Assembly: GCA_009746045.1 (NCBI GenBank)
Contig: RPFO01000213.1
Coordinates: forward strand, 8,559,814-8,623,813
Direction of reading: 5' to 3'
DNA length: 64,000 nucleotides
DNA from: Mesostigma viride
Taxonomy: Eukaryota; Streptophyta; Mesostigmatophyceae; Mesostigmatales; Mesostigmataceae
The position numbers and the translations under genes are program-made. The notes beneath the pieces are model-generated. The model had not been told where the DNA came from. It saw only the letters and a list, made by a program, of their open reading frames with translations, and did not search any database. Below, in pieces: positions 32,877 through 62,633 of the stretch; position 1 is the first letter of the stretch, and each line of letters begins with the position of its first letter.

Positions 32877-33845
32877 ATGGCGCTAGACTACGACGCAAGG
32901 ATGCCGGGTCTTTTGTGGACCGCCATCCTCGTGGCGCGCTTTCTGCATCTCGAAAGGGAGGATGGAGTGGCGTGCCTGAGGTTGGCGTTGTGGGCGGTAT
33001 GGTGGTTCTTCACCGAGCTGTTGTGCGTTGTTCGGCTCATCATTTACTACCCAGGTAGGCGCGGTGTTGTTCACAGGTTAGCACCTGCTTTGTTTGTCTT
33101 CTGCAGCTCAAGTTACGTTTATTTGGGGGGGGAGGAGGCATCACGAGTCATGTTTATCTTTTGCAGAAAGTGATGAAATGATGTTATTGTGTTTTTTCAC
33201 AATGCTGCTGGCCCTTTGGCATCCCACTTGCAGAGCTTATGGTGAAGCTACTTGTGCAACTTTTCATGAAGTTGGCCTATGGTAAGACGCTGTACAGGAA
33301 TTGTTTTGCATATCCGTTTCAAGTTGTTGTTGATTTTGGTATGAAGTCATTTTCTTGTGGCAGAACACATGTCTCTTTCTGGAAGGGCTGACAGCTGACA
33401 AGAGTTTGTTGTACATGTCTTTGCGGTGCATGTTTTGTTGTGTTTTCTCCTGAATCCACAAATGCAGCCGTGATGAGGCTACTGTGGAGGGTTTCGCGAG
33501 TGGTCTGTGCGATGGCAGGCGCGATGGCAGGCACACGGGAGTTCAGCAACATCATGGTTGTGGTTTCCATAGCGGCGATCGTGATTGTCGCTGAAATGGC
33601 CACTGTCGGCTACGATGGCATCGTTTTGGCTGTTTGCAAGCCAGGTGGGTGCAGTTGTTTTGGGACATAAATCCTGTGTTGGATAAGATAACTTTGATTT
33701 CAATGTTGAATGTTTCTACTAAATGACGTGTATGCTTGTGCGGACTGTCGCTGATGTGTGGGTCTTGCTGGCACCATGCAGATCTCCGTTTGGAACTGGG
33801 AGCCGTCGTGGCGACTGTTGGGTGGTATATCTTCCTTGGCTTCTG
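32877..33845 (+). CDS. Exons 1-4: hydrophobic N-terminal region
   Basis: Four short exons (phases 1,1,1,2) encode hydrophobic segments separated by basic residues: [61 protein letters not shown] and [16 protein letters not shown]. Four to five could span a membrane. Helitron transposases are not known to be membrane proteins, so this may be a separate or captured gene whose exons are now spliced in frame to the rest. Codon phases continue without break into exon 5. Confidence 0.45.
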
Positions 33846-36800
33846 GTAAGTGCCTCTGGTATTGTCATGGACAGTGGTAGTAGCATCATTACTTTCTTAT
33901 ACATATGTGCTAGCCTGTTTGTGTCATGTATAATCATTGTGAACAACATGCTTGCTTTCTTTTTGCAGTCAGATGCCCATATTGATGCGTGGTTCCACAA
34001 TGATATCTTTTCCTTTTCATTGTGTGGTGGTTTCTGTTTCGTACTTGGCAGGCACAGGGCTGCACATTGTCCATGGAAGCAGTGCAGCACCCTAGTGTGG
34101 ACATCACAGCGCTCAACCACGGTGTTGCGGTGTTATCGCTTGCCAAGGCATCCTGGCATTGTGCGGAGGCTCGAGGGAAGACATCGACCTATGAGGAGGC
34201 GACTAGCATGGGTAGGTGGAGTGCATCCAGAGTATTTCTGGAAGGTCTCAAATTGTCGGGAAGCAATGAAAAATACTGTGTTAGGTTTCCTTGGTGGCAT
34301 TTGTGGTTGTTTTTAACTGTGGGCGTGTCTTTTGTGTTGGTGCGCTTGTTTATGCAGGCTCCTGTGCCGCTTTTTGGTGTGCGTCCGAGGCACAGTCCTT
34401 GCTCTCGCGTTCGGTGCATCATACGGCGCCGTTTGCCCCGACCGCAGCGGTCGGCGTGGCGTCCCACTCGGTACCCGCGTGCTACACCGCAGCGAGGTTC
34501 TGGCCCGGCACGGCAATCGCGAAAGCAAAGGCGTAGGATGAGGGCTTTGGCTGCTGCCATGTGTTGGTGTGCACGTCCTGTCGGATATGGTGGAGAACCG
34601 GTGTACGATGGCGACTGCGAGATTCCTTTGGCAGGGGAGGACGACTTGTGCGAGGAGGTATGCGGCGCTTGATGCTACTATATTCACATTCTGCAAATGA
34701 TCGTCTGTTCGGCTGATGTGTGGGAATGGCGTTTCTGACCATGGTTGGTGCCTTGCTGCCGTGCATTGGCGTCATTCACAGGGTGGCGATTCCGACGTGG
34801 GAGAACGTGTCGATGTGGAGGGAGATTGGGACGAGAGCTACTGTGTATGTTGCTGCATGTCTGTTTTTTAAATTGAATGTCTGATGCATGTCATTTGCAT
34901 TGTTGGTGTGGTGTTGAGGCACTGATAGTTCCCTTCATGCGTAAACGTTTGTGTATGATAGCTAACGTGTACGGGATCTGTATGCGTGCATTCTGTGTTG
35001 CCACGCCAGGGCGTGTCCTGCCACGAAGGCATGTCTTCACAGCGGCATCGACGCAGGAGGAGGAAGACAAGGGTGGGTGAATAAAGCGTGAGCTGCTAGT
35101 TGCCAGTGTCAACATTTGTGAAGTGGTAGCTGCCAGCGTCAAATGGTGTTATGACCTTGATTGTATTAAACTGAATTTACGTGATGGCTCGGTCCATCTT
35201 TCTTCACGCGTGTGTTTTCTTCGAGCCATGCCCAGGCACCACGTGGATCGGATGCCCAAGCTTCATGCGCATGTGGATCGCAATGTGTAGCAACAACTTC
35301 GACTCAAGGGTCAGGTCCAACCCTCGCTGCGAGTTCACCAGCATCACCGTGCGCCACATCATCCCCACAGCTAGTGGTATCGCCGTATCACACAGCGGCT
35401 TCACCTCCCATGGGCGGCGGGTTGCCACCGTGCGCTATGGCTCGTGGTGGGGACCCTCGGCCTCGGGCGTACTTGTGCGTAGAACAAGCCGACTGCTTAG
35501 TTGGGAATCCATCCGCTTGGGTGGCCTTCGTCCGAGGTAAAATCGACGAGTTGGTGAACGCGGCGCCAGACAAGTTCAGTGACAATATTTATTATGCGGT
35601 GAGTGCAGTGTGACAGAGTCGTGTTCATGGTGACTTTGCTCAGCTTGTGTCCTTCACATATGTGCGCGTGCTGTTACTAACATCGACGGTTGCTTGATGA
35701 TGTGTCTCTGTCTTTGTCTTGCAGATGCTAATGCTGCAGGCAAGGGTGGGTCCTGTCGTGCCTTGGCCAAGGAGTGCTTCGGAAACGCTGTTGGTAGGTT
35801 GTGCTTTGGGTTGATGACTCATCTTCCTGCCTTCCTTTGGTGTGAGTCGTTCGCTTTGTTTCGGATGCTACCGGTTGGCATTCTCAATGCGTGCCAGTTG
35901 TTCTGTTGGCCTTGACGTTCTTGCGCAGGCGGAGGTCGCTGGGTACTGGGCACACGGGTTTGTCCAAGCCGCAACCGCATTGGTTGGCGATCCTCTACAA
36001 TGCATGGCGACTCTGCAGTTTATGATGGGTATACTGCAAGTACGGAAATCGGAGTTTTCGTGGGATGACTACTGCATGGCGGTAAGTTGAGCTGCAGTGA
36101 TGTTTTGGTCCTTATGCGATTGCTTGGTGTTTGATTTTTCTGATGATTAGCTGTTGATAATTTATCGAGATAAGATGATCTGTGGAGTAAGGACGGTGCT
36201 GTTTTACTTCGGAGTCTTACTGAGTGGTGGATGTGCTTCATTATGGTGGTTGCCTTGTGGCAGGTTACTAGCCTCCACGACAATCTGCGGTATTGGGAAA
36301 CGCTGCGCATCCAGATGGAAAGCCAGGGGTGTGACACCATGACAGCGGCCCCGGTGGGTGTGCCTGCGCAACCGTCGGTTAGTACATGGGCAACACCACA
36401 AGCGGATGATCCTGCCCAGGCAGCACAGGCAACAGTACCATCGCAACCACAAATGGGTGCATCACTTCCGACAGTGGTGAGTTTGTTTTGAAGTACCCGT
36501 GTATGTCATTTAAGGTAGGAGGATTTTGGTTCACCTTTGCTAAGGGACCAGTGTGGACCATGGCTAAGGTTTCTTTTTTTTCGAGTGATTCGGTGTCAGT
36601 GCAGGTTTCAAGGAGGAAGTTCCAAAGTGCTTCCTCGTTTCTGGAAGCTGCCCTGGCATGTGATGGGACTGTGGGGGAGCGCTTGGTGACGGTCGAGCAT
36701 TACCTGCGGATAGTGGAGGGACGACGCGACGTGCTCTATGCTGCGGACTATGAACCTGCGGTGAGTGATGTGAACCGTGCAAATGATTCATCTGTAACTG

Positions 36801-39800
36801 GTTGCTTTTCTTATTGGATTGTCAGGTTGTCGCTTTCTACGTAATGTGTAATATATTACGTAATGTGAAATATATATGATTTGTACGGTTTGTGCGGTGG
36901 TTACCTGCAGGTCGCACAGCTGAAGGAGCTGTTGCGGTATTGGATGGAGAGGAGTGGAGGTCAGGTGGCAGAAACTGCACAAGGAGACGTCCAGGTGCTG
37001 CAACAGACTGTACCAACACAAGTGGGGGTGGCTGCGTGTGTGACACCGATGGCCATGCCTGCACATGGGACAGTGGCATTGAAGCCAGGGCCAGTGGTAC
37101 ACGAAGCAGAAACGGGTGCGACGACGGTGAGTTTGTGTTTTAGCGTTGCTAAGGTTTTTTATGTAAAGCTCTCTAACTGGATCTGAGTCCATCTTGGTGG
37201 CAGGTCGTTGAAGTATTGGATTTAGAGCAGCCTCCTGACTTTGCTGTGTTGTTATGTTTTAATGGTTGGCCTGCAGGTGGATGTGCGCCGATTTACAACG
37301 GCGTCAGAGTTTGCGGATGCGGCTTTCACCGGCGCTGCGAATGTCTGGGAACGGCTGGCACGCATCCAGTATCTCTTGAATGCGTTGGAACAGGAGAAAC
37401 ACAGATTTTCCGCCAAGTGTGTTGATGCAGCAGTAAGTGACTGCGTCTGTGTCTCGCTTTGATCTTGCTTTGTTGTTGTTTTCATGGATGCATGCAGTGG
37501 GTACCCTTTGGATACAAGTGAGTCTATGCTAATAAAAGTTTCTTGGTGTGGGCGGGTGTTGCTTTCCTGGGTACAGACGAAAAGGCTGAAGGATGCACTG
37601 CGCAACTGGAAACAGAAATGGTCAAGTTTGGCTGAGGAACAAAAGCAGCGCTTACAGTATGGATGTGCGGCGACCACACCAGCTGGCAAGGTGCCTCTGC
37701 ATGTGCGGCCAGCTGTGGTGGCGGAACAAGGGCTGCCACATGCGCGTGTGAGCCCAGCAGCTGCTGCAGCACAAGGGGGCACGCCGGCATGCGTGAGCGG
37801 TGTTCAGGTTAGTTGTGCTGGCACTGTGTCCTGTTGCATATAGTGCGCTGTGTGCTTTCTCGAGTGATTAAGTTTCATCAGTATGCTGTGTAGGATTTTG
37901 TGACATTTAAAAGAAGCTAACCACACACTAGCTCGGCACATGGAACTCAAATGTTGCGGTCTAACTTTGACAAGTGTCCCTTTTGCTCCGTTGTGTATCG
38001 ATGCAGGACGGGGACACACGGCCTTTCAAAATGGCGGTTGACTTTGTGACGTTTGCAAAAAGCTTCTCTCGTAGTAGGGAGATGTCGGTGGAAGAGAAGA
38101 TCGCCCGGCTCGAGTCGCTGTTGGAACAAGCACAGCAGTGGAATTTGCATAAAACTGATCCCGAAACGACCATACAACGAGACATGGCGGTAAGCTGTCA
38201 TTAACACATCTTGTTTAGTTCTGGGATACTCGAGTCTCGAATGGCACTTTTCTTTTATTTTTTGTGTTTGATCCTGCTGTCTTTGACAGTTGCTTTACTT
38301 TGTGTGCAGATGACAACGATGCAATGAATTTTCTGTTTATCTGGGCTTCATTGCAGGTGAGGACACTGCAGAAGATGGTGGACCGTCGACAGGGGCGTCA
38401 ATCTTCGGTGCGTGGGAGACAAAAAGGGAATGCTGAGAGCAACGTGTGGTCTTTATATTTGGCGTTTCTGCACAAGCTAGCAACGTTTATTGTATTAAAC
38501 TTACTTGATTTTTCATAAATGGGCGGTCACGTGATTTTGCAGGATGGTGTGTGCGAACCCGGTGCGACGTTGGCCTATGTGCGTGCGGCGGAGGCCTTTT
38601 GTTGTGGCGACGTACACTCGGTTGAGGAACAGATCGAGTACCTGAAGTCATTAGTGAACGAGATTCGACGTCGGGATGATTTCACTGACGAGCAACGTCG
38701 GACCCTGGTGAGTTCTTAATCCATCTTCTGTGCACTCAATCGAAAAGCAGATCGAGTACTTGCAGGAGTTGGTGAACGAAGTGCGACGCCGGGATGATTT
38801 TACGCATCAGCAACGTCAAACCTTCGTGAGCTCTTTATCCATGTTAGGTACCTGTCAATTTGCGTTTGCTATTTTGGTATGATTGCTGCTGCTGCTACTG
38901 CTGTGTAATAATCCCCAGTATTTTTGGGCACTTTGTGCATGCCACATTTTATCGCAGGGAAAAACTCTGCTGGACATGATCAATGCAAGGGTTCAACCTC
39001 CATGTCCCAGCACAGCGGTAAGCATAGGTATTGGTGTTTTGTGGTTTAGGGTTGCTGGTATGGGATGATGATACACGGATTGTTATTATCATTGGTTGTA
39101 CTCTGCATACCATGTTATACAGCCATGTCACAATGGTGGAATTTTGTGCACATTTGTGCGGCGGATGGGACGCTTGGTGTCTGCGCTGTGTGACATTGGT
39201 GACGACTAGGATCTGTCTACCTCGCATGTTTTTTGTCCTGCGGAATGCGCAGGATGCTACTTGCTGCTGATACCATTTTATGCAGTCATATCACTGTGGC
39301 GCACATTTGTTCCTGCAGTGTTTAGTGACGGCGACCTCACATTCTTTTTGTCATGTCACATGCGCAGGATGCTGCTGGTGTGCAAGCACAGGGCGATGCG
39401 GGGCGGCGTGATGCTGTTGTCAACCAGTTGAATGCGCAGCGAAGGCGGAAGAGTGACAGTCGTGTGAGACAAAAGAAGAAGAGGATCGCGAGCGATGCAC
39501 ATCACACGCGAGGCAAGAAGGATGCGAGGATGGACGACAATGACGCTGATGACAGTGAGGGGGCTGATGCCGACAGCGATGCGAGGATGGACGACAATGA
39601 CGCTGATGACAGCGAGGGGGCTGGTGGCGACAGCGATGCGAGGACGGACAGCGACGACACCGACGACAACGTGGGGAGCACCGGCGACGGGGAGCGCATC
39701 GATCCGGTTGAGGCAGGCAGCCCGGGCTTGTCATCACCTGGCAGTGATGGGAAGCGAGCTGTTGACGATGTGGCGCCTGTGACCGAGGAGACGCAACGGC

Positions 39801-42800
39801 AGAAGAACAAGAGGGTGAGTTTTTCTGACGTTATGTCACTGGTGTGCCATAAATTAGATTGCACTTGGTTTGGTATTGGGGTGATGGGCAGGGCATCGCC
39901 AAGTGTTCCCATCAACGGCACTGCCGTGTGCGGTTGAGAAGATCCACACCATAATCGCATTTATATTACACAGTATTCATTCCATTGCATTTTTCGTACT
40001 GTTTTGGTCCTTACCGATGCAGGAAAACGACGAGATGAAGAAGTTCGGCATGACGCTCGCGGAGGTGCGGCGGCTCTCGCGCTGCCTGGACACTGGCGAC
40101 TATGCTGGCTTCGGAATGCGGCCGTTCAAGCTGCGACCGCTGACCGACGACCCGAGCGCCGCGCATCCGTACTCACTCGATGAGCACCGCGAACGCAACA
40201 AGTGCCCGAAGTGCCACACGCCCATGTTCAAGGAGGAGGAGCCCAAGGGTAGCCGCTGCTGCTCGAAAGGCAAGGCAAAGGTGTTGGAGCCGAACCTGAA
40301 TCTCATCATCGAGAAGCGCAGGCGGCGGGAGCGGCTGCTGGCTGAGGCGAACGCGGATGAACGCGAGCTCGCGCGCAACGAGCTGACCCACCAGGAAGAG
40401 ATGCTGTGGCAGATCCACTGCAACCCGACGAACGTGGCGCTGTGGATCAGGTACGGTGTTGGCACAAGCACTGCTCTTAATTACTACGTGTCTGTGTGTA
40501 TTGACGCATGGACTGTGCGGGCATGTCATGCGCCCTTATAGTGCATGAGCTATGCTCAAATTTTCTTCACCACCCTTGTAGTGCGGAAGCTATGCTGAAA
40601 TTTTTTCACCATGTTTGGTGCGGAAGCTATGCTGAAATTTTTTCACCATGTTTGGTGCGGAAAAGTTTTTTCACCACGCTTGAGGCTTGACCTACGAGCC
40701 TTGGGGCATGGGATGCGGCAAACAGGCGGGCAGGCAGCCAGCCACATCCACATGATTAGGGGCCAGACAGCAATCAGGGGCACCGCGGGCCCACTTATGC
40801 ATGCCAGCCACACCCCTCACCAACGTACGCATGCCAGCCACCCCCGACACCCACGCACGCATGCCAGCCACCCCACGAACCCACGCACGCATGCCAGCCA
40901 CCCCCTAAACCCACGCATGCAGGGCAGCTCCCCACCACAGCCACGCATGCATGCCAGCGCCCCCCCACACCCACGCACGCATGCCAGCCCCCCCCCAAAC
41001 GCTTGTGGTGCGGAAGCTATGCTGAATTTTTTTTCACCAGCCTAGGCTGAAGTGCGTTGTGCCTTGTATTGCACCCTGACACATCGTCCCCGCCGATGTA
41101 TTTGTGAACATGCATCAGGTATGGGCGGATGATCAACCAATTTTTCGCAGTGGCACGCATCGTTGCGAGCGGGCGCATCGGGGATTCAGTCAAGAACAAG
41201 GGGGCGTGCGTGCTCGAGCTGCACGGCCAGACCGTCGAGCGCATCAAGCCGATCATCCGGGACGGCGTGCACGTCAACAACGACTTCTTCTTCTTGCTGG
41301 ACAAGCCGGGAAAGGACGAGGCGCAGGAGGACGTGTTGAAACGGTGAGGGGCACGGCAGTTGGTGGTTTTAGCGAGTGCGCGTTGTGATGTGTGATGGGG
41401 TGATTCTTTGGCGTGAGGTGGCGCACACGATGGCTGACGGTGTCTGTGAGTGCGGATGCGCGTACCTTTGTGGCTTCCTGCTCCGCAGCTGCGAGGTGAA
41501 AGAGCGAGACCCCAACCTGCGCAAGCTGCTGGACCTTCTAGAGGAGTACCTGCTCACCTACAACCCGTTGCTGCAGCAGTTTGCCCGGCAAGCGACCGAG
41601 GAGCTGGAGCAGCGGCAGGCGTCCGTAGAGGTGGCGGGACAGTTCTCGCCGGAGGTGCACGCGCCGGAGATCTTCCTGCTGCCCAGGTGGGTGGGACATG
41701 GGTACGGGCCCCACCCTTGACTGCGTTTGTCGCTAGCGACGGTGCACTGCTGCATGCATTAGGGATCAGCCGCGTTCCTCCCATAAACCCACGCATGCAT
41801 GGCACTCCCCCCACACACCCACGAATGCATGGCAGCCCGCCCCGCCCCACATGCATGCATGGCAGCTCCCCCCCACGCACGCACGCATGCCAGCAAGTGT
41901 GTGTACCTTTGTCATGTTGTAAAGAGCTATCATTGGAATGGTAATCCTCCCACCCACGCAAGCATGCCAGCCCGCCCCCCCCCCCACGCACGCATGAAAG
42001 CACCCCCACGAACCCACTCACGCATGCCAGCCCCCCCCGACACCCACGCACGCATGCCAGCCCTCCCATAAATCCCCCCACATGCACGCATGCATGCCAG
42101 CCACCCCACGAACCCAGGCACGCATGCCAGCCCCCCCCTAAACCCACGCATGAATGGCAGCTCCCCACCACATGCACGCATGCATGCCAGCCATCCCACA
42201 AACCCACGCATGCATGCTAGCCACCCCCACACACCCACGCATGCATGCCAGCCCCCCTGCAAACCCACACACGCATGCCAGCCCCCCCCCACGTGCACGC
42301 ATGCATGGCAGCCCCCCCACAAACCCACTTATGCATGCCGGCCACCCCCCTCACCAACGTACGCATGCTAGCCACCCCCCACACCCACGCACGCATGGAA
42401 GCACCCCCAAGAACCCACGCACGCATGCCAGCCCCCCCCGACACCCACGCACGCATGGCAGCCCTCCCATAAACCCACACACGCATGCCAGCCCCCCCCC
42501 ACATGCACGCATGCATGCCAGCCACCCCGCACATGCACGCATGCATGCCAGCCACCCGACAAACCCACCCACGCATGCTAGCCACCCCCACACCGCCCTT
42601 ACTTATGTTACGGGAGCTATAGCGAAATTTTATTCTCCGCCCTTATGGCGTGGGAGTTATGTTCTTCACCGGCCTTACTTATGTTGCGGGAGCTAGGGCA
42701 AAATTTTCTTATCCGCCCTTATAGCGCGGGAGCTATGCCAAAATTTTCTACACTGCCCTTACTTATGTTGCGGAAGCTATGGCTAAATTTTCTGGTTGCA

Positions 42801-48800: not shown

Positions 48801-51800
48801 AGCGTTATTGCATGGCGCGCAAGGGACCATGGCCCCCTCTGGCATGCGTTATTGCATGGGTTGTCTTGGTGCGCGTTTTTTCTCACCTTTCGCTATTGGG
48901 ATGCTTCATGCGTCGGTGGGGTCCTGCAGCTGAAATGGCAAGCTCCCGAGCGCGCGTTGAGGGACGTCAACAACGAGGTGCGTCATTGTCGAATTGTCGC
49001 CATTGTTTTCCATTCGTTTGATGTAGCGTGCTTGGGGAGGGGGCGTGTGCTAACCGACCGCGGCGGCTGCGATCTTGTGCTGGCGCTCGCAGGTGATCGT
49101 GTGCGAGGGCCACACGGCGCGATGGTGGCTCATGCCGCGCGTGACGCGCGTCTTCACGCGCATGTACGACCCCGACCTGCGCAACCCCGAGCTCTTCTAC
49201 CTGCGCGTGCTGCTGGAGAAGCGCGCCGCGCAGTCGTTCGAGGAGCTGCGCACCGTGGGCGGCGTGTTGCTCAGTAACGAGATGGCGTGCCGGCGGCTGG
49301 GCCTGCTCGAGGACGACGACGCGGCGGTGGAGAGCATGCGCATCGCCGCGCGCCGGCTGGAGACGCCGTACGCGATGCGGCGGCTGTTCGTCATCCTCGT
49401 GCTGCAGAAGCTGAGCACGATGAGCGCGCTGTGGCGGTTCAAGGAGGAGATGATGAAGGACCACCTGTTCTACGCGTACGAGGACGTGCACGGCGGGGTG
49501 GGCCGCAGAGCCAAGCAGCCCATCACGCTCGAGGACCGCGAGGCCGCGCTCGCGCGCACGCTCGCCTACCTGGACAAGCGGCTGTCGGCCTACGGCTACG
49601 ACGTCTGGGAGCTGGAGCCCGTGCTCAAGTGCCGGCGCGACAGGGGCGAGGACGTGTGCCGGCGCAAGCGCAAGCACGACGACGACGACGACGCGAACAT
49701 CCTCGCGCCCGACCTGAGCAAGTTCTCTCTCGTGCAGCGCGAGGCGTACGAGACCTTGCTGCTGGCGATCAAGGGGCTCAGCCCGGACCGCCGGCTGTTC
49801 GTGGACGGGCCCGCGGGCACGGGCAAGACCATGGTCATCAACGCGGCGATGCAGCAGTCCGCGCGCGACGGCTTCAAGGTGGTGCCGATGGCGTTCACGG
49901 GCGTCGCGTCGCTGCAGATGTGGGGCGGCCACACGTCGCATCACGCGTGCGGGTTCCCGCTCGAGCTCGACCTCGAGTACGGCTGCCGCGTGACGCGCAA
50001 CTCCGCCAGGGGGCGCACGCTGTTGGAGGCGCACGCGCTCGTCGTCGACGAGATCGGCATGATGAACGTGGAGCTGATCCATCTCTTGCACGAGCTGCTG
50101 GTCGAGCTCACCTTTGTCAAGGAGCCGTTCGGCGGCAAGGTCGTCATCTTCGCCGGCGACTTCCGGCAGGTGGCGCCCGTCGTCAAGGGCGCCAGCGAGC
50201 TGGCGACGGCCGACGCCAGCGCGGTGCGGTCGCCACAGTGGGTGGGCGTGCACCGGCTGCCGCTCGAGTTCAACTACCGCGCGCGCGAGGACCCGGAGTA
50301 CGCGCAGTTTGTCGCCGACGTCGGCATGGACAACGTCGCGTACGAGGCGGTGATCGACGACCGCACGCACCAGGAGGTGGCGATGATCCCGCTGCGCATG
50401 GTGCAGCCGGTCAAGGACGAGGACGAGCTGATCGCGCACACGTTCCCCAACGTCAACGACGCGAACGCGTGCATGCGGTCCTCGATCGTCGCAGTGACCA
50501 ACAAGGCGTGCGACGACATCAACGCGGCTGTCCTGGCCAAGCTGGAGAACCAGGAGCGCAGCACGTTCAGCCACGACCGCGTCGCCAAGTCGGGGGAGAG
50601 GGTCTCCATGAGGACCCTCAACTGCGCGCGTCAAGACGGCGTCCCCGACCACGAGTTCAAGTGGAAGGTGGGCGCGGTGGCCATGATCACGCGCAACCTG
50701 TCCCACAAGGACAGGTTGCAGAATGGGACGCGCGTCGAGCTCGTAGACGAGCAAGACGGCGCGTTCCTCGTGAAGACGCCGGACGGGGAGCTGCACGCGA
50801 TCCCGCGGATCGCGTTCAGCATCGACGCCGACAAGTTCAAGATCCTCAGGATGGCCTACCCTTTCAAGGTACGTGGGCGCGCGCAGGGAGGGGCGGGGTG
50901 AGCGCCATGCGGTGTCGTTGCTTGCGGTGTCGGCTCACGCCTTGCGATCGTATGACTTGCGGTGGCCTTGGCTGAATGCTCCCTTGCTTTCCTCGATGTC
51001 TTGCTTGCTTACGTCCGCGCGTTTGTATGGTCGTCGCGCAGCTGGCGTATGCGGTCACGATCAACAAGTGCCAGGGGCAGACGCTGGAACGCGTCGGCCT
51101 CTGGCTCAAGCACGACGTGTTCGCGCACGGCCAGCTTTACACGGCGCTCACGCGCGTGGGCGCGAGGGGGCACATCCGGGGCTTGTTCGGCTACGAGTTC
51201 GATGGCGTCGGCTACAGCAGGAACATCGTCAACTGGACGATCCTGCAGGGCGCGGGCATCAACATGCGCAACAAGGCGGAGGACCGCGTCAAGGCGCGCA
51301 TCCGGAGGCGCCAGCGAGGCCGGCGCCGCGCACAGGCATCCGACGACTGGGAGCTGCCGGACCCCATGAGCGGCGAGCCCCAGGACAACGAGTACGACAA
51401 CCCCGACGACGAGCACACGTGGGAGCTCGGGGACGACGAGGCGTGTGCGGAGGCCGACCAGGCGTGCGCCGATGACGCGGCCAAGAGGCGGTGGAGGCAG
51501 GTCGTCGAGGAGCCACTGTGGGCGGACTTCATGCTGGAGAGCGACGGCGAACAGGATCGCGACATCCTGCGGCAGGACGGCTTGATGTCCGACGGCGAGC
51601 CTGAGGAGCCCGAGCTGCTGTTGTACGAGGGTGGCGACAGCGACGAAAACGAGGGCGTGCCCGACCTAGGTGACTGTGAGGATATGGTAAGCATATGCTG
51701 ACTGTGAGGATATGGTAAGCATATGCCGCCGCCGTCGTCACGAGATGAAAGCCTCCCTTGGCTGCACCGAGCGTGCGCGCCCGCTGCTGACGCATCTCGT

Positions 51801-54800
51801 GCGCGTGTGACCTCGTGCGTGGCCGTGTGCGTGCCGCGTTGTTTTGGCGCTCAGGGGCTGGACGAGTACGGCGACCCGCTTGACGACGACCGCTGCGACG
51901 CGCCGTCGGCGCCCGACGACTTTTGCGAGGAGGTGAGTGCTGCTGGCCCATCTCGCGTGCTAGCGCCCTGTTCCGCGTCCACTCGTCCTCCTTTTTGTTG
52001 CTCACATTCGCCTCCGCGATCGCTTGCTGACCCTCACAGGACGACGACTCCGGGCTGGGTGCCGCCCTCGACGACTTTCGCGACTGCGTGGGTCAATTCG
52101 ACGACTACCCCTACGTACGTTTCCCGGTGCCGCTGTCTTTCTTGACGCGCGTTTCCTACCTCCGCCTACCTTTGCTGCGCGCGCCACGCGTCCAGGGACG
52201 CTGAGCCGATCGCCGTTCGATGCGGTTGCGTGTCGTGCGATTTTTCCCTTGCAGGACGATGACGACTCAGACCACTCGTACGCGGATATCCGATCGGGCC
52301 CTGAAATCGGGCACCTGGCCGTGGGAGCGAAATGCCCTCCGGATTTCACGATGGAGGAGCGCGACGCGATAGCGGTGGGTCTTTGAGCTTGCAGCGGTGA
52401 CTCTTCCACTTCCCTTGCTAGCCGTTGCCAGCGCGCTCTCGGTGCAGGGCACGTGCTAGCACGCGCGAGGCACCATGGCACCGCCTGGCCATGTCCACCC
52501 CCCCAAACGATGGACCTGCGAGCCCCCACTTTGCACACATGATGGACTAGTGTGGGGCATGCCTCCTCCCAAGTTTCAGCCCAATCCAAGCTTGTTTTCA
52601 TATTTTAGGACCCTGGCCCACCTCTAACGGTGGGCACGTGCTAGCGCGCGCTAGGGACCATCGCACCCCCTGGCCATGTCCACCCCCCCAAACGATAGAC
52701 CTGCGAGTCCCCACTTTGCACACATGATGGACTAGTGTGGGGGAAGCCTCCTCCCAAGTTTCAGCCCAATCCAAGCTCGTTTCCATGTTTTAGGACCATG
52801 GCTCACCCCTAAGGGTGGGCACGTGCTAGCGCACGCAAGGCACCATGGCACCGCCTGGCCATGTCCACCGCCCCCAAACAATGGACCTGCGAGCCCCCAC
52901 TTTGCACACATGATGGACTAGTGTGGGGCATGCCTCCTCCCAAGTTTCAGCCTGATCCAAGCTCGTTTTCATATTTTAGGACCCTGGCCCACCTCTAAGG
53001 ATGGGCACGTGCTAGCGCGCGCTAGGGACCATGGCAGCCCCTAGCAATGCCACCCCCCCCAAACAATAGACCTGCGAGCCCCCACTTTGCCCACATGATG
53101 AACTAGTGTGGGGGAAGCCTCCTCCCAAGTTTCAGCCCAATCCGAGCTCATTTGCATATTGTAGGACCATGACCCATCCCTAACGGTGGGCACGTGCTAG
53201 CGCGCGCTAGGGACCATGGCACCCCCTGGCAATGCCCCACCCCCCAAACGATGGACCTGCAAGGCCCCACTTTGCCCACAAGATGGACTAGTGTGGGGCA
53301 AGGCTGCTCCCAAGTTTCAGCCTGATCCAAGCTGGCCCACGCCTAACGGTAGGCAGCCTTCCGCCACACTAGCGTTATTGCATGGTGCGCAAGGGACCAT
53401 GGCCCCCTCTGGCATGCGTTCGCTGACCTCGCCTGCCCACTCGCGATCGCGTTCACGGTGCTTGTCGATTGCGTGGTCGCAGGCCGCGATGGTGTTTTCG
53501 TCGGACGAGGAGGAGGACGTTGGAGACAACGATGCCTCACGGGATTCGGAGCGCGGTCCCGCTGACGGGCGCGAGACGACCGTCGACGCCGCGCCGGGCG
53601 GGCCTGTCCCGGCGGTGGCGGGTCAGGTGCCGGCTGGAACGCACGGGGACGCCGCACCGCACGCCGCTGCGGCCGCCGGCGTGCCGGGTGACCCCATCCT
53701 TGGGACAGCGGACCCTGCAGACCCAACGCTCGTGGGGACGGCGCGCGAGCATGGCCGGGACGTCGAGGGTCTCCTGACGCACGTGCGCGGCGTCCTCGCG
53801 GCGTGCCGAGCGCTGCTGCCGCGACTGCAAGGGGTCCCACTCGGCGCGCCGCCTCGCCGCGACCCCGTGGAGGCGCTGTACGCGAAGCTGTGCGCGTCGC
53901 GGGCGCGCGGCGAGCTGGGCGGGCAGGACCGGCTGCGCTTTGATGGGGGCAGGGACGGCCTGGCCGGGTTCGGGGCGGCCTCGCTTGCGCCCGCCGAGTT
54001 CGCGATGACGCTGCTCCTGTGGTCGCGCGAGCACGTTGGCGGCTCGCCGCCGCTGCTGGTGAGCGACGAGTGCGAGCAGCTGCGCGGGCTGTTGGGCGGG
54101 GACGGCGACGTCGCGGACGTGGTGCGCCGGTTGCTGGCGCACGCGGATGCGCACACGTTGGTCGAGCGCACACCGTGCTGCGTCGACGCGCGCTGCGAGG
54201 CCGCGGCGGACGAGAGCGCGCTCGACTTGGTCGACCTCGGCGCGGGCGAGGGGACGCTCGCGGAGCGCATGGCGGCGCTGCTGAGGCGCGGGCGGCCGGA
54301 TGGCGCCTGCGTGGATTGCGGCGAGCCGGGCGCCAGCCGCGGGCGCCACCTCGATGGCGGGTTCCCTGCGAGCGTGCTGTTCCACGTCGCGGGCGGGGCG
54401 GACTTGCGCGCGTGCGGGGGGGGCTGCCTGCCATCGTCGCTTGACGTGCGCGTCGTGGACGGCCCTCGTGGGCAAGAGGTCGCCGCGGTCGCGCGCCTGC
54501 GTGGCTTTGTGCAGGTAAGGGCCGGCAGCGGACTCGTTTTCTGCCGCGCCGTCGACGGCGAGGCCAGTCGGTTCCGAGTCGTCGACGCGCTCACGGGCGG
54601 CGTCACTGTGGAGACGCTGCGGCTGGATGACCTGGAGCAGCCCGTACTCGTGTGCATGTACGCCGTGACAGCGGCCGAGGACCCGGCGAGGACGCGCGAG
54701 TCGTGGCCCTCGCAGGCAGCCACCTCTCCCGGGGCTGCCGGCGAGCGCGCTGCCACTGCAGAGAGGAGGCGCGAGGAGGACGCCACGGCCCCTGCTGCCG

Positions 54801-57800
54801 CTCAGGTGGCTCCTTGCCAGGAGCGGACGGGTTGCGGCGCTTGCGCCATGTTCGATCGGCTGATGGCGTCGCACGGCCACGTCCGGCTGTGCGCCGACCG
54901 CACGCGCACGTTTTCCTGGCGCGACAACTGCTGCCACATGAACGCGGCGCTCGAGTTCGTGTGCGAGCTGCTGCTGCTGCTGCAGACGCCCGCCGTGTCG
55001 GGCTTGCGATTCCTGACGTGCTGCGCCGCGGGAGAACCCCACGACTGGGGCTGCGAGCTGGGGCTGGAGCTGCTGCGCTGCGTGCTGGGGGTCGCGCAAG
55101 GGCGGGGCCGAGAAATGGACGCGCGGCGCGACGCGGTGCTGCGCGTGCTCGACAGGCACTTGCCCGGGCGAGTGGCCGCCGACCCGGACGACGCGTATGA
55201 CAACATGAGGATGCTGATGCAGCACGTGGCGGCCGGCGGCCCGCGCTGCGGCGAGCGCACCTGCGAGCTCGGCGTCAGGTCGGACGACGGCCCGGTGGAG
55301 CTGCCGCTGTTGGTCATCGACTGCCATGACGAGTGGGACGTCGCGACGCGCCTCGCGTCGGTGTGCCGAGAGTACGCGCCGGACGTTCCCGTGGCTTGCG
55401 GTCTGTGCCAGCAAAAGGACTGCGTCGCGCTGCGCCACTACGACGAGCTGCCGCGCGTGCTGCCCTTCGGCCGCCTGAACCAGCTGCCGCCCGGCGCCTA
55501 TCGCGGGGCGGGCCTGCCAGAGACGATGCAGCTGACCCTGTCGGTCGGGCCGGCGCGGCGGCAGGTGCGCGTGACCGCGCGGCTGCGGGCCGTGGTCGAG
55601 CACACGGGCGGCCACTTTGTGCTGCTGCGCCGTCGACGAGCGGGCGCGCGGTGGGAGGTGGTGGACGGGCTCGCCAAGTTGGACGGCGTGAGCCACCGCG
55701 ACCACGTCGACTTGGCGCGGCTCGCGAGGCTGACGGACGCCTGCTGCTACGTGCTGGATGAGCAGCCGGGCGCGACGCCGGCGCTCGACGAGATGGACTG
55801 CGACGACGGCGTCGCCGCGCACACGCTCGTCGGGGACAGCGAGTCGGCCGTCGTGCGGGAGTGTTGGCAGGACTTCGTGCACCTGCAGGACGCGTGCGAG
55901 GGCCTCGCGCTGCGGCAGCGCAGCGACGTGGCGTTCAAGGGGCCGCTGTCCGCCCCGCTGGAGCTGCTGTACGCGGTGCTGTGCCGCTGCCAGGCGCAGA
56001 GCGCCGCGCGCGACCTGCGCTGCGTCACCTTCGACCGGGCGGGGCAGGTGGGCGGCGCAGGGGACGTGGGCGCGCGGTTTGCGCTGGCGCTGCTCATGGC
56101 CGTGTGGCAGCGCGCGCAGGGCACGCAACAGCACGTGGACGCGGCGTCCGGCGAGCTGGAACGCGCGCTGGCGGCGTTCGAGCGGCGCGGCGACGACGGG
56201 TCGCTGCTGTTCTCGCTGGAGCTCATGCTGTCACACGTCGACGCCCCGCGGTTGGTCGAGCGCGGTCCGTGGTGCGTCGCGTGCGGCCAGCCTGTCGGCA
56301 CGGTCGTCGAGACCGAGCTGCCCTTGGTCGACTTGGCGCGCACGACGGGCGGCCTGACGCATCTCATCGCGGCGGCCGTCAAGGAGCGCGTGTCCACGGG
56401 CGAGTGCGCGGCGTGCGGGTTCGCCTGTTGCCAGAGCTTGCGCAGACTCCACGGGCGCTTGCCCGCGTGCCTCGTGTTCCGCGCTGCCGACGAAGCGGTC
56501 TTGAGCGCGGGCAGGGTCCCGCCGGACCGCTTCTCAGACTGGCTTGCCCTCGGCGACGACCACGAAATCGAGGTGGACCTGCGCCTCTGCGGCTTCGTCC
56601 AGCGCACGTCCGGCGACCGCCTCTCTTTCTGGCAGCGCGCCTGCGACACGCCCGACGGCTGGTGGGTCAGCGACGGCACGGGACCGGCGCGGCGGCGGCG
56701 CGACCGGGACTTGGCGGGCGGGGCGGCCACGGAGATGGTGTACGCGTACGAGGTGGCGGCCGCGGCCGGCGCCGCCTACTATGACGAGGACCTCGGCGAC
56801 GCGGCCGATGCCCCCTTGGACGCGCCGGCGCCACAGGAAGCAGAGCGCGCGCCGCGTTCGCCCGTCGTCGTCGACGGCGATGGCCAGGACGAGCGTGCCT
56901 CGCACGCAGCGCCCGTCCGACCCATCGATGTGTCGCGCGATGACGACGTCGCCATCGACACGGAGTCCCTGACGCGACCGCTGGCAGCGGCGCCGCGCGA
57001 CGACGACTGCGTCAGGACGGGCGAGGGGCAGGACACCACACCGTTCGCGTTCCGACCGCGTAGGGCCGCGCAGCAGCAGCCGCTGGTGGCGGACTGCCAT
57101 CGGTTCGTCACCTTCTTGCAGCAGAACGGCGGCGCGACTCTGCCTCCGAACCCACGCGGCTCGTACAAGTGGGGCGAGAACAGCTGCCCCACCGACGCGG
57201 CGCTGGGGCTGCTGTACTTGGCGCTGGCGGTCACCAAGGAAGGTCTGCGCCTGCTGACGTGCCACCGCGCGGACGAGTCGCACGGCGACGCGTGCGCGCT
57301 CGGGCTGCTGCTGCTGTTCTGCATGCACGCGTCCAGGACCGGCAACGTGTCCATCATGACGCGCGCGAGGGAGGCGGTGCGGCCGCGGCTGGACGCGTCG
57401 CTGGGGAGGGCCCGCGGCGCGATGGACAGCGTGACATCTACCGCCGCGGGCCTGCTCCGGTACGTGGACGGCGTGGTTCCTCGCCAGGGCGACTTCGCCT
57501 GCCGGGCGCCGTTCCCGGTGGACGGTCGGCTCGTGGACGTCAACAAGTTCACGCTCAGCCCGTGGGAAGCCGACCGCATGGACATCGACGAGCGCATCGC
57601 GGCCGCGTGCACGCAGGAGCGCATGGGCGCGCGCCCGCCGTGCCACCACTGCGGGTCGCCCCGCTGCGTGCCTCGACGCTACTTCGACCGAGTGCCGCCC
57701 GTGCTCGTCTTTCTGAACGTCTCCAGCCACCTCCCGCTGATCAACTACGTCGGGAGCGGGCTGCCCAAGACGCTGGAGATGACCCTCTACATCGGCCGCG

Positions 57801-58030
57801 CGTGCGTGCAAGTGCGCGTCGCCTTGCGGCTGTGCGGGGCGGTCGAGTACCGCCCAGCGCACTTTGTCGTCTTGCGGCCGGTGGACTTGGACGCGGGCAC
57901 GTGGGAAGAAGTGGACGACGGCCCGGGGCTGTGCGCCCCAGTCATCCGCATCCACCCGCGCATGAACCTCGTCGCCCTGGCCACCAAGACGACGGCGTGC
58001 GCGTACTCCGTGACGGTGCTCGACCGGTGA
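32877..58030 (+). CDS. Giant multi-exon Helitron Rep/helicase gene fused to USP-like protease modules
   Basis: Proposed exons: 32877-33054, 33234-33281, 33468-33644, 33782-33845, 34052-34211, 34358-34657, 34782-34844, 35010-35072, 35236-35598, 35725-35793, 35929-36081, 36264-36476, 36605-36760, 36911-37126, 37277-37432, 37577-37807, 38007-38189, 38357-38443 (or -38407), 38543-38707, 38958-39017, 39368-39814, 40023-40450, 41119-41343, 41489-41686, 45118-46525, 46714-47010, 48930-48977, 49093-50868, 51042-51686, 51855-51932, 52040-52114, 52255-52374, 53483-58030. Every border is GT-AG and every phase fits, so one frame runs from the ATG (context GGAACCATGG) to the stop, about 4,465 residues. 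The core (40-52 kb) is a Helitron transposase: a Cys/His region, HUH-Y2 Rep nuclease and Pif1-type helicase, acting by rolling-circle replication. The N-terminal third and the protease-like C-terminus are unusual. Two or more genes, or captured host exons, remain possible; the join across 52374/53483 is phase-compatible but unproven. Confidence 0.65.
34052..35072 (+). CDS. Exons 5-8: Arg-rich then acidic segment
   Basis: Exon 5 and the first half of exon 6 are strongly basic ([33 protein letters not shown]), suited to nucleic-acid binding or nuclear targeting. The end of exon 6 and exon 7 turn acidic ([21 protein letters not shown]), and exon 8 is basic again ([12 protein letters not shown]). 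All joins are in phase 0 after exon 5. No domain is recognised. Confidence 0.45.
35236..39017 (+). CDS. Exons 9-20: amplified two-exon cassette
   Basis: Short phase-0 exons alternate between two types. Type alpha (35929, 36605, 37277, 38007, 38543; probably the end of 35236) codes a helical segment with an aromatic/Ala start and an E-x-I-x-x-L pattern, e.g. [20 protein letters not shown] and [13 protein letters not shown] with [12 protein letters not shown]. Type beta (36264, 36911, 37577, 38357, perhaps 38958) starts with a charged helix such as [18 protein letters not shown] or LKDALRNWK and ends in a Pro/Ala/Gln-rich tail. I infer tandem duplication of an alpha-beta exon pair. The function is unknown; oligomerisation through helices is possible. 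Confidence 0.5.
38730..38825 (+). pseudogene. Duplicated alpha-exon end, possible alternative exon
   Basis: This region repeats the 3' half of exon 19 (38543-38707) with about 80 percent identity. Within it, a change has created a new acceptor (CTTGCAG ending at 38765) and the donor is kept (GTGAGC at 38826), so 38766-38825 would be a 60-base phase-0 exon. It could be an included exon or a relic. Confidence 0.55.
39368..41686 (+). CDS. Exons 21-24: Helitron N-terminal zinc-finger region
   Basis: Exon 21 (39368-39814) is a charged linker with a repeated [14 protein letters not shown] motif (two copies, 60-bp DNA repeat) and an Arg/Lys nuclear-localisation-like cluster. Exon 22 (40023-40450) holds [13 protein letters not shown]...CC, as found in the zinc-binding region at the start of Helitron transposases. 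It is followed by exon 23 (41119-41343, [13 protein letters not shown] and later FFFLLDK) and exon 24 (41489-41686, [19 protein letters not shown]). Intron phases 0, 2, 2, 2 match across all joins. This part recognises element ends or RNA in better-known Helitrons; that role is assumed here. Confidence 0.6.
40540..40680 (+). repeat. GCTATGC-AAATTTT minisatellite, short block
   Basis: Three to four units of the ~41-base family that dominates 42.6-45.0 kb (CGGAAGCTATGCTGAAATTTT), in the intron between exons 22 and 23. Confidence 0.85.
40795..41005 (+). repeat. CACGCACGCATGCCAGCC minisatellite, block 1
   Basis: About seven units of roughly 28-30 bases, C-rich with a GCATGC core, in the intron between exons 22 and 23. 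Confidence 0.9.
41775..42595 (+). repeat. CACGCACGCATGCCAGCC minisatellite, block 2
   Basis: About 27 units of the same 28-30-base family, interrupted by a unique stretch at 41,895-41,945, inside the long intron between exons 24 and 25. Open frames across it on both strands (Pro/His-rich or Trp/Gly-rich) are artefacts. Confidence 0.92.
42596..45000 (+). repeat. ~41-bp GGGAGCTATGCCAAAATTTT minisatellite with ~658-bp higher-order repeat
   Basis: Units follow the form CACCCTTGTGGCGCGGGAGC plus TATGCCAAAATTTTCTGCAC. The segment beginning GGAGATATGGCAAAATTTTC at 43,333 recurs at 43,991 with almost no change, and similar starts occur at 42,986 and 43,640, showing a higher-order unit of about 658 bases. 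A block of the other family (GCATGCCAGCC) is embedded at 43,295-43,333, 43,953-43,990 and 44,320-44,540. Frames through this array are artefacts; one of them runs into the genuine exon at 45118. Confidence 0.93.
45118..47010 (+). CDS. Exons 25-26: Helitron HUH-Y2 Rep nuclease domain
   Basis: Motifs appear in the Helitron order: [14 protein letters not shown] (motif 1, near 45,715-45,750), [15 protein letters not shown] with the HUH pair (codons for GLPHAHV at 45914-45934), [43 protein letters not shown], then YLNKYINKG with the two catalytic tyrosines (codons at 46433 and 46445). Exon 26 continues with [11 protein letters not shown] and [12 protein letters not shown], also typical. All catalytic residues are present, so the nuclease looks intact. 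It cuts one strand at element ends and forms 5'-phosphotyrosine links. The preceding intron (41687-45117) is full of minisatellite. Confidence 0.88.
47042..48850 (+). repeat. ~185-bp minisatellite array, intron 26/27
   Basis: About ten units containing GATGGACCTGCGAGCCCCCA, TGGACTAGTGTGGGGCATGC, TTTGCATATTTTAGGACC and GGGACCATGGCACCCCCTGG. The last unit ends in a distinct terminal sequence (GGTAGGCAGCCTTCC...GCGTTATTGCATGG, about 48,778-48,850). Confidence 0.93.
48930..51686 (+). CDS. Exons 27-29: Pif1-family helicase domain of Helitron
   Basis: Exon 27 (48 bases) joins to exon 28 giving [15 protein letters not shown] and [20 protein letters not shown], the conserved linker of Helitron transposases. 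Then come Walker A GPAGTGKT (49807-49830), Walker [27 protein letters not shown], and [16 protein letters not shown]. Exon 29 brings [18 protein letters not shown] and [11 protein letters not shown], the last SF1B motifs. No motif is missing. The helicase unwinds the displaced strand during rolling-circle transposition. The tail of exon 29 is acidic with [18 protein letters not shown]. The large antisense frame over this exon is a composition shadow. Confidence 0.9.
51668..51726 (+). repeat. Tandem 29-bp duplication across a splice donor
   Basis: TGACTGTGAGGATATGGTAA plus GCATATGC occurs twice in direct succession, so the end of exon 29 and its GTAAGC donor are present in two copies. Use of the second donor would add codons that include an in-frame TGA, so the first donor is preferred. 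Confidence 0.85.
51855..52374 (+). CDS. Exons 30-32: acidic linker
   Basis: Three small phase-0 exons (51855-51932, 52040-52114, 52255-52374) encode very acidic sequence ([39 protein letters not shown]) ending in [10 protein letters not shown]. They connect the helicase to the last exon, which itself begins with [12 protein letters not shown]. The matching acidity on both sides of the 1.1-kb intron supports continuity. Confidence 0.6.
52440..53420 (+). repeat. ~185-bp minisatellite array, intron 32/33
   Basis: About five units of the same family as 47,042-48,850, in the same orientation, ending in the same terminal sequence (about 53,349-53,420). It lies inside the intron joining the helicase part to the USP-like exon. 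Confidence 0.93.
53483..58030 (+). CDS. Exon 33: four USP-like (C19-type) cysteine protease modules
   Basis: This is a 1,515-codon last exon. Module A1 (about 53860-54670): [17 protein letters not shown], ending VLVCMYAV; no catalytic residues. Module B1 (54820-55765): Cys box [17 protein letters not shown], zinc-like CGLCQQKDC, His box TGGHFVLL then WEVVDG. Module A2 (55850-56765): [25 protein letters not shown]; no catalytic residues. Module B2 (57090-58030): [30 protein letters not shown] and [10 protein letters not shown] Cys box followed by a CxxC pair and then His and Asp boxes is the layout of ubiquitin-specific proteases, which remove ubiquitin or similar modifiers. B1 and B2 look potentially active and A1 and A2 look degenerate. 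The A-B pair was duplicated. The family call is by motif only. Confidence 0.6.
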   Translation, partial: AAMVFSSDEEEDVGDNDASRDSERGPADGRETTVDAAPGGPVPAVAGQVPAGTHGDAAPHAAAAAGVPGDPILGTADPADPTLVGTAREHGRDVEGLLTHVRGVLAACRALLPRLQGVPLGAPPRRDPVEALYAKLCASRARGELGGQDRLRFDGGRDGLAGFGAASLAPAEFAMTLLLWSREHVGGSPPLLVSDECEQLRGLLGGDGDVADVVRRLLAHADAHTLVERTPCCVDARCEAAADESALDLVDLGAGEGTLAERMAALLRRGRPDGACVDCGEPGASRGRHLDGGFPASVLFHVAGGADLRACGGGCLPSSLDVRVVDGPRGQEVAAVARLRGFVQVRAGSGLVFCRAVDGEASRFRVVDALTGGVTVETLRLDDLEQPVLVCMYAVTAAEDPARTRESWPSQAATSPGAAGERAATAERRREEDATAPAAAQVAPCQERTGCGACAMFDRLMASHGHVRLCADRTRTFSWRDNCCHMNAALEFVCELLLLLQTPAVSGLRFLTCCAAGEPHDWGCELGLELLRCVLGVAQGRGREMDARRDAVLRVLDRHLPGRVAADPDDAYDNMRMLMQHVAAGGPRCGERTCELGVRSDDGPVELPLLVIDCHDEWDVATRLASVCREYAPDVPVACGLCQQKDCVALRHYDELPRVLPFGRLNQLPPGAYRGAGLPETMQLTLSVGPARRQVRVTARLRAVVEHTGGHFVLLRRRRAGARWEVVDGLAKLDGVSHRDHVDLARLARLTDACCYVLDEQPGATPALDEMDCDDGVAAHTLVGDSESAVVRECWQDFVHLQDACEGLALRQRSDVAFKGPLSAPLELLYAVLCRCQAQSAARDLRCVTFDRAGQVGGAGDVGARFALALLMAVWQRAQGTQQHVDAASGELERALAAFERRGDDGSLLFSLELMLSHVDAPRLVERGPWCVACGQPVGTVVETELPLVDLARTTGGLTHLIAAAVKERVSTGECAACGFACCQSLRRLHGRLPACLVFRAADEAVLSAGRVPPDRFSDWLALGDDHEIEVDLRLCGFVQRTSGDRLSFWQRACDTPDGWWVSDGTGPARRRRDRDLAGGAATEMVYAYEVAAAAGAAYYDEDLGDAADAPLDAPAPQEAERAPRSPVVVDGDGQDERASHAAPVRPIDVSRDDDVAIDTESLTRPLAAAPRDDDCVRTGEGQDTTPFAFRPRRAAQQQPLVADCHRFVTFLQQNGGATLPPNPRGSYKWGENSCPTDAALGLLYLALAVTKEGLRLLTCHRADESHGDACALGLLLLFCMHASRTGNVSIMTRAREAVRPRLDASLGRARGAMDSVTSTAAGLLRYVDGVVPRQGDFACRAPFPVDGRLVDVNKFTLSPWEADRMDIDERIAAACTQERMGARPPCHHCGSPRCVPRRYFDRVPPVLVFLNVSSHLPLINYVGSGLPKTLEMTLYIGRACVQVRVALRLCGAVEYRPAHFVVLRPVDLDAGTWEEVDDGPGLCAPVIRIHPRMNLVALATKTTACAYSVTVLDR

Positions 58031-58600
58031 ACACCGGGGGCAGGCGGGGGGGGGGGGGGGGGAGCGTGGATGCAACTCGTCACGCGGGAGTTGCGTGCAG
58101 GGGGGGCCAAGTCACCTGCCGTGCCCGGCATCTAGCGCGGATCGCGACGGTTTGTATGGCTGCACGGCTGACACGTTCGCACGTTCAAGAGCACGCAGCA
58201 CGGTGAGTTCATCCTGTTGCGACCGTCCCAATCACCTTATAGTGCGTGAAGGTGCAGCCTGCCTTGCGCAGACTAGAACGCAACCGCATTGCACCGCGCT
58301 CCATTCCAGGTACGTGCCCGTGTCCCAGTATCATAGTCCTCGCACTGACGTTGTGTGCAGCAGCTTGCACTTCTACTCGATGCTAACACGCGGTCTGCTC
58401 AGCTTGCCCTTCTACTCGATTGCCGGTGCTGACCTCCCGTGAGGCAGGGTGAAGGCACATTGCAATCGCCGTCGGGGACGAGCTCGCGTGGATGCAACTC
58501 GGAGGAACGCAACCACATTGCAGCGCGCTCCATTCCAGGTATGTCCCGGTGTCCCAGTATCACAGTCCCTCAGGCTGCGTCCCTCACGCTCCACACACCT
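58031..58600 (+). repeat. 3' flank of the Helitron gene with poly-G and direct repeats
   Basis: A G-run lies at about 58,045-58,062 just after the stop. The landmark GTGGATGCAACTCG occurs at about 58,067 and 58,487, and GCGCTCCATTCCAGGTA occurs at about 58,298 and 58,525. A weaker third copy of the CTTCTACTCGAT...GCTGACC part is near 59,515-59,560. The element's 3' end (hairpin plus CTRR) should be sought here but I could not fix it. Confidence 0.6.
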
Positions 58601-60545: not shown

Positions 60546-60555
60546 AATATGGTCA

Positions 60556-60752
60556 TCTTGGCAGCGGGCAGCGGGCTGCGGGCAGCGGGCAGCGGGCAGC
60601 GGGCAGCGGGCAGCGGGCAGCGGGCAGCGCGCAGCGGGCAGCGGGCAGCGGGCAGCGGGCAGCGCGCAGCGGGCAGCGGGCATGCAGCGGGCAGCGCGCA
60701 GCGGGCAGCGCGCAGCGGGCAGCGGGCTGCGGGCAGCGGGCAGCGGGGCGAA
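60556..60752. repeat. (GGGCAGC)n heptanucleotide array
   Basis: About 27 units of a 7-base repeat with GCGCAGC and GGGCTGC variants. The repeat length is not a codon multiple only once per unit, so all frames stay open across it and the resulting Ala/Arg/Cys-rich or Gly/Ser/Gln-rich translations are artefacts. Confidence 0.95.
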
Positions 60753-62547: not shown

Positions 62548-62633
62548 AACAGGTTTGCTCAACGGAGGCTGTGAGCGCGGGAGTTCACCCGTAAAACCTT
62601 GTGCCCGCAAGTAGCAAAGCGCATCAACCGGGG

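Follow-up and report, generated by a model that had tools for sequence, protein, structure and literature searches.

A candidate giant, intron-rich Helitron gene in Mesostigma viride whose Rep-helicase core is flanked by long extensions

A stretch of 64,000 nucleotides of the genome of the streptophyte alga Mesostigma viride (contig RPFO01000213.1 of assembly GCA_009746045.1, forward-strand positions 8,559,814 to 8,623,813; the window) contains a Helitron, recognized by its HUH two-tyrosine Rep, Pif1-type helicase and 5' TC end. Comparison with other copies and annotated paralogues supports a Helitron gene of giant size in which the Rep-helicase core lies between two long extensions. The favored reading, with a probability of roughly three in four, is an autonomous element of ~30 kb carrying one intron-rich gene (33 exons, ~4,450 residues), whose domains would act in transposition as proposed below. 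The start codon (32877-32879) and stop codon (58028-58030) are both present on the plus strand, and the final model between them, 32877-58030, comprises 33 exons encoding 4,448 residues, with GT-AG borders at 32/32 introns and 25, 3 and 4 introns in phases 0, 1 and 2. A preliminary description, made by eye, had proposed about 33 GT-AG exons from one ATG to one stop and a protein of about 4,465 residues; the comparison-based rebuild recovered both closely, and the exon chain is confirmed as a gene model.

Gene model and annotated paralogues

The gene was rebuilt with a dynamic-programming script that scored synonymous and non-synonymous codon change across copies, codon use and splice sites, using eight other genomic copies picked as loci with a similar Rep and then also annotated M. 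viride paralogues (predictions, not cDNA; those named below are P0004 to P0007, P0012, P0013 and P0015 to P0018). The first comparative run broke the chain at 35.4 kb and extended it spuriously beyond 58 kb, forcing a single chain gave 34 segments, one of them empty, with 4,305 residues and a start at 32901, and more paralogues with the start fixed at 32877 gave 32 segments and 4,410 residues. Five details were set by hand on that script output using paralogue models: segment 44531-44608 was removed, exon 24 was ended at 41686, exon 38958-39017 was inserted, and, after a re-check against P0015 to P0017, exon 33234-33281 was inserted and exon 12 was lengthened to 36476. Segment 44531-44608 and a start at 44895, both chosen by the script, were rejected because they conflict with P0016, and open reading frames in tandem repeats at 42.7-44.9 kb were rejected as exons because they sit inside intron 24. 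An exon-like copy at 38766-38825 was omitted as a likely decayed duplicate; it resembles a portion of exon 19, sits in a 118-bp tandem repeat and perhaps represents a module duplication in progress.

The eight copies are collinear with the window outside tandem repeats over the portions fetched, which reach from about 31.6/31.9 kb to at least 58.6 kb in C1b, C1513 and C1424, and cover 32.0-56.1 kb in C1413 and parts only in the other four. As far as fetched, the extensions lie in matching order across copies, and the comparative data bear out the Rep-helicase core between long extensions that the preliminary description had proposed. Among the annotated models, P0015, P0016 and P0017 cover the N-terminal extension to exon 24, with P0016 continuing into exon 25; P0018 covers the finger region to the helicase; P0013 covers Rep to the C-terminal extension; P0004 covers the helicase end to the stop, crossing 52.37-53.48 kb; and P0012 runs from the N-terminal to the C-terminal extension with the Rep-helicase skipped. 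P0006 is 100% identical to the last exon over its best stretch. Breaks that had been suspected near 35.1 and 40.0 kb are bridged by P0012, P0015, P0016 and P0017, and that near 52.4 kb by P0004, P0012 and P0013. From these predicted models we infer a single mRNA for the whole chain. The features are as follows.

31613..59997, +, Helitron as preserved, beginning with the 5' terminus TCCCCTTCTAG and interrupted by another repeat at 59997/59998
31613..31860, +, 5'-terminal ~250 bp; 97-100% match at ≥39 other places
32877..33054, +, exon 1, start ATG, hydrophobic segment; P0015 begins with homologous residues
33234..33281, +, exon 2, hand-added after P0015-P0017; 2 copies aligned, without third-position bias
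33468..33644, +, exon 3, strongest hydrophobic segment; comparative model
33782..33845, +, exon 4; comparative model, P0015-P0017
34052..34211, +, exon 5; comparative model, P0015-P0017
34358..34657, +, exon 6, Arg-rich; comparative model
34782..34844, +, exon 7; comparative model
35010..35072, +, exon 8; comparative model
35236..35598, +, exon 9; comparative model
35725..35793, +, exon 10; comparative model
35929..36476, +, module M2, exons 11 (35929-36081) and 12 (36264-36476)
36605..37126, +, module M3, exons 13 (36605-36760) and 14 (36911-37126)
37277..37792, +, module M4, exons 15 (37277-37432) and 16 (37577-37792)
38007..38407, +, module M5, exons 17 (38007-38189) and 18 (38357-38407)
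38543..39017, +, module M6, exons 19 (38543-38707) and 20 (38958-39017, hand-added)
39368..39814, +, exon 21, acidic, low complexity; weak third-position signal
40023..40450, +, exon 22, Cys-rich finger region ahead of Rep; comparative model
41119..41343, +, exon 23; comparative model
41489..41686, +, exon 24; joined to exon 25 in P0016
41687..45117, +, intron 24, the largest, mostly 30-bp and 40-bp tandem repeats
45118..46525, +, exon 25, Rep; HUH motif 45914, two-Tyr motif 46433
46714..47010, +, exon 26; comparative model
47079..48785, +, 185-bp tandem repeat in intron 26
48930..48977, +, exon 27; comparative model
49093..50868, +, exon 28, Pif1-type helicase, Walker A 49807
51042..51686, +, exon 29, helicase end and acidic linker
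51855..52374, +, exons 30 (51855-51932), 31 (52040-52114) and 32 (52255-52374); P0004
52447..53333, +, 185-bp tandem repeat in intron 32, consensus near-identical to the intron 26 repeat
53483..58030, +, exon 33, encoding the C-terminal extension up to the stop
53774..54673, +, C-domain A, without Cys and His boxes (by eye)
54830..55765, +, C-domain B, USP-like, Cys/His/Asp boxes
55862..56764, +, C-domain C, without Cys and His boxes (by eye)
57092..58027, +, C-domain D, Cys/His/Asp boxes as in B

Selection on the exons

The exons are under selection, as judged from two to eight aligned copies per exon. Distinct substitutions at codon positions 1/2/3 number 269/258/452 in exons 1 to 20 (third position, 452/979; p = 6e-17), 42/40/56 in exon 21, 23/9/103 in exons 22 to 29 (103/135; p = 2e-24), 3/0/3 in exons 30 to 32 and 8/14/40 in exon 33 (40/62; p = 5e-7). 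No aligned, gap-free codon is turned into a stop by substitution in up to eight other copies. Between copies, acceptors are kept in 195/196 cases and donors in 188/191. In the 33-39.4 kb part, copies retain the donor in 104 of 107 observations versus 936 of 1381 for other intronic GT, and the acceptor in 110 of 111 versus 367 of 589 for other intronic AG; the copies are related, so these observations are not independent trials.

Intron divergence between copies falls along the element, from a median of 17.4-17.5% (33-39.3 kb) through 7.7% (39.3-41.7 kb) and 6.1% (44.6-47.1 kb) to 0.4% (48.8-52.4 kb), and is 3.1% directly past the stop. Chimeric copies, or gene conversion acting on the GC-rich 3' half, could produce this gradient.

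Rep-helicase core and Helitron class

The HUH Rep matches PF14214 (83.6 bits) and contains LPHAHVIF at 45914 and the two-Tyr motif YLNKYINKG at 46433, with spacing as in Helraiser (PMC4778049). The Pif1-type SF1 helicase (PF05970, 125.8 bits) lies in the same protein as Rep in the annotated paralogue P0013. Helentron-type Reps are reported from green algae (PMC4067079). A search for the Helentron mark, a C-terminal AP endonuclease, found no endonuclease family in P0001 (E ≤ 10) or P0013 (E ≤ 1). No clear inverted match of the kind expected for Helitron2, with asymmetric terminal inverted repeats and palindromes at both ends, was found between the ends of the window copy as preserved, which is without its 3' end. 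The protein features and the 5' end are those of a Helitron, and the 3' end varies between copies.

N-terminal extension

The front extension consists of hydrophobic segments and five copies (M2 to M6) of a module of ~75 residues, probably helical. Each module is encoded by two exons, the intron of all five falls at one shared alignment column, and relatedness is not matched in any of 200 shuffles for each module (leave-one-out). All four protein matches to this extension are from Mesostigma, among the best ~7,980 candidates by word sharing that were scored. The hydrophobic segments suggest that the N terminus would contact a membrane, and the extension may have grown behind them as a two-exon unit, bounded by phase-0 introns, was duplicated again and again.

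C-terminal extension

The tail consists of four related domains, A to D (0/200 shuffles in each of 14 tests). Seven positions (N33, C35, C190, C193, H262, W275 and D279) are invariant in five sequences, three of B and two of D. The order of Cys, CxxC, Gly-Gly-His and Trp..Asp corresponds to what we take to be the USP box consensus, with the box Asp of domain B 17 residues after the His. A low-confidence predicted structure of domain B retrieved USP or USP-like proteins in rows 1 to 16 of a Foldseek search and USPs in 50 of 50 among the matches listed by VIA-align. In the favored reading, the four domains represent a USP-like pair present twice, as A-B and as C-D, with the Cys-His-Asp boxes retained in B and D, which are probably deubiquitinases.

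All 11 protein matches to the tail are from Mesostigma (again among ~7,980 candidates scored by word sharing), and the tail recurs, at 39-66% identity, in gene models that have diverged. With P0013 as the query and the same limit on candidates, three of four matches are from Mesostigma, and the fourth, P0019, matches the Rep-helicase only. A search of viral contigs with two patterns returned no relatives of the tail.

Element ends and copies

The termini, which the preliminary description had proposed to determine, were located as a 5' TC end at 31613 in the window and, in related copies, a 3' hairpin followed by CTAG or CTTG. The 5'-end search scored 40 of 298 candidates, the window included. 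The 5' terminus reads TCCCC, as do 20/20 other ends fetched (fuzzy match). Directly ahead of these 20 ends lie a hairpin-CTAG/CTTG (type I) 3' end in 13 (9 CTAG and 4 CTTG), a second hairpin type ending in CTTG in 4 and other sequence in 3; in one of the 13 (L033), four extra bases separate the 3' end from TCCCC. Such head-to-tail junctions are known from maize and bats (PMC2267711). As to insertion between A and T, expected of canonical Helitrons, 17/20 ends abut another element, and of the other three only L040 has A before TC; G precedes TC in the window, and T follows the 3' end of C1106.

Set against the CTRR terminus of canonical Helitrons, C1424 among the fetched copies ends in CTAG, and C1a and C1106 end in CTTG; the window copy is without a 3' end. 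The hairpin GGGGGGCCTTGGCCCCCC lies within a few bases of the end in all three; a hairpin-to-end distance of ~11 nt is published for Helitrons (PMC4067079). C1a and C1106 were fetched in their 3' parts only; their 3' end lies 2.2-2.4 kb beyond the position that corresponds to 59997. In C1424, the 3' end lies about 255 bp beyond the position that corresponds to 59768. A terminus at 59768, taken from C1424, was rejected because other copies continue past it. Adding the remainder from C1a to the preserved part (31613-59997) yields a composite element of ~30.6 kb. Three 5' ends at C1424:680936-689424, spaced 4,121 and 4,120 bases apart, suggest an array of short derivatives beside an autonomous copy.

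The window Helitron is cut by another, young repeat that starts at 59998. At this junction, matches at 95-100% to 31 other places begin at query base 391-408 (59990-60007) and continue to the query end, and four Helitron copies match up to query base 398 or 399. The gene had been described as apparently recently intact; the open frame of the window copy agrees with this, but the element is interrupted at 59998 and other copies have frame-breaking indels. A palindromic stretch is present at 62.0-62.6 kb in the region from there to the end of the window (59998-64000), and a retrotransposon gag fragment (PF03732, 24.9 bits) lies at 2754-3338 on the minus strand.

Alternative explanations

Several observations weigh against a single selected gene with deubiquitinase domains. 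No single annotated model covers the full chain: P0015 and P0017 end at ~41.7 kb, at intron 24, P0004 begins at 51.2 kb, and P0005, P0006 and P0007 begin at 53.5 kb (53.49 kb). Constraint on exons 1 to 20 is weak (348 synonymous and 573 non-synonymous changes), exons 2, 5, 16, 20 and 21 have little or no third-position bias, and indels that break the frame relative to the window occur in 31 exon-copy combinations (13 exons; all 8 copies affected), some of which may stem from faulty assembly or alignment. In addition, the USP profile PF00443 gave no match at E ≤ 10 (HMMER). The argument that chance compatibility of so many joins is improbable was wrong as stated, as 4/4 shuffles of the region also yielded 15-31 phase-compatible exons and the reverse strand of the same region yielded 22 (6.8 kb). 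Nevertheless, the shuffles coded for 2.2-5.7 kb versus 14.2 kb (28 exons) for the real sequence under the same scoring, and the 5' part alone gave 19 exons and 4.3 kb versus 7-20 exons and 1.2-2.5 kb in 6 shuffles. Compatible phases by themselves do not exceed chance; coding length, splice-site conservation and third-position bias do. That the whole chain is a product of free GT/AG choice is extremely improbable given copy conservation, third-position bias and the paralogue models; it was rejected for most exons, with exons 2, 5, 16, 20 and 21 supported mainly by paralogue models. The partial models could alternatively reflect two or three separate genes or transcripts (N-terminal extension and finger region; Rep-helicase; C-terminal extension) that were over-joined, as extra proteins of Helentrons lie in separate open reading frames (PMC4067079). 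This is unlikely, as every junction is spanned by at least one model (P0016 from exon 24 to 25, and P0013, P0004 and P0012), splice dinucleotides are kept in copies, and the finger region and Rep, split here by the largest intron, share one protein in Helraiser (PMC4778049).

The nature of the extensions is a separate question. Helitrons can transduce flanking DNA, as in Helraiser read-through (PMC4778049), and together with the weak constraint on exons 1 to 20 this would be compatible with captured host gene fragments carried as passengers without a role in transposition. Such an origin is very unlikely, as the same extensions occur in the same order in the copies, the tail recurs in diverged models, both extensions have third-position bias, and Cys, His and Asp are kept in the three B sequences compared. 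The C-domains could also belong to another class of papain-like cysteine protease, VTD or OTU, both reported from Helitrons (PMC9741609), and the low confidence of the structure model leaves some room for this. This assignment is quite unlikely, as the residue order follows the USP consensus and the fold search places USPs on top. Asp or Asn before the His would be expected of VTD, on our reading of PMC9741609 (stated for the classic papain order, with VTD called its mirror image); in B, the motif has Asp after His.

Proposed mechanism and significance

The core would constitute a complete rolling-circle transposase with a finger region, an HUH two-tyrosine Rep and a Pif1-type helicase. By its motifs and by analogy with Helraiser, Rep would nick the 5' TC end, the helicase would peel off the strand, and the GC-rich hairpin at the 3' CTAG/CTTG end would terminate the reaction. 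Domains B and D may shield the transposase, or their targets may be ubiquitinated chromatin or repair factors, and A and C may be ubiquitin-binding or structural pseudo-domains. We infer these enzymatic activities and domain roles from motifs and relatives. That all parts form one protein of ~4,450 residues, with a membrane-associated N terminus, a duplicated helical-module scaffold, the transposase, and two active and two pseudo USP deubiquitinases, is a tentative proposal, held at somewhat less than even odds.

If correct, exon duplication would build the protein of a mobile element, and growth by duplication of exon pairs with phase-0 introns is, to our knowledge, unusual for such elements. 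We know of no earlier USP-type deubiquitinase in a transposase in the open-licence literature, and this would be the first. The gene is also a candidate driver of short derivatives with a shared 5' end in the M. viride genome. It has been argued that having a deubiquitinase, whatever its class, is of benefit to Helitrons of animals and to herpesviruses (PMC9741609). If a Helitron of a streptophyte alga carries a USP-type array, this would represent another, separate acquisition, and whether transposition needs ubiquitin removal would become testable.

Comparison with known systems

In the open-licence papers searched, a USP-like array, exon-pair modules and a protein of such size were not found in print, and these features are new as far as that search reaches; the main text of the M. 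viride genome paper (PMC6947507) does not contain the word "helitron". Two diverged M. viride relatives share parts of the protein: P0018 is 41.6% identical from finger region to helicase, with one N-terminal module by eye and no tail in the model, and P0013 is 42.7% identical over the Rep-helicase and part of the tail, its model ending within or after C, without D.

Helraiser/Helibat1 of bats likewise combines a finger region, an HUH Rep with two Tyr four apart and a helicase (PMC4778049; sequence match to PDB 7lcc), as well as a 5' TC and, as in those copies here that end in CTAG, a 3' CTAG with a hairpin. It differs in that its PDB chain has 1,496 residues, no such extensions are described in the excerpts of PMC4778049, and its hairpin lies 11 nt from the end rather than within a few bases. 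USPs (C19) such as USP7 and USP15 share the order of Cys box, CxxC and His box and give a weak structural match, whereas the domains here are without a sequence-profile match, stand four in a row, two of them without catalytic boxes, and are transposon borne. Animal VTD/OTU Helitrons and Helentrons also add deubiquitinase-type domains, sometimes two per protein, but these are of another protease class and from another host lineage, and no AP endonuclease was found among the families searched here (PMC9741609, PMC4067079).
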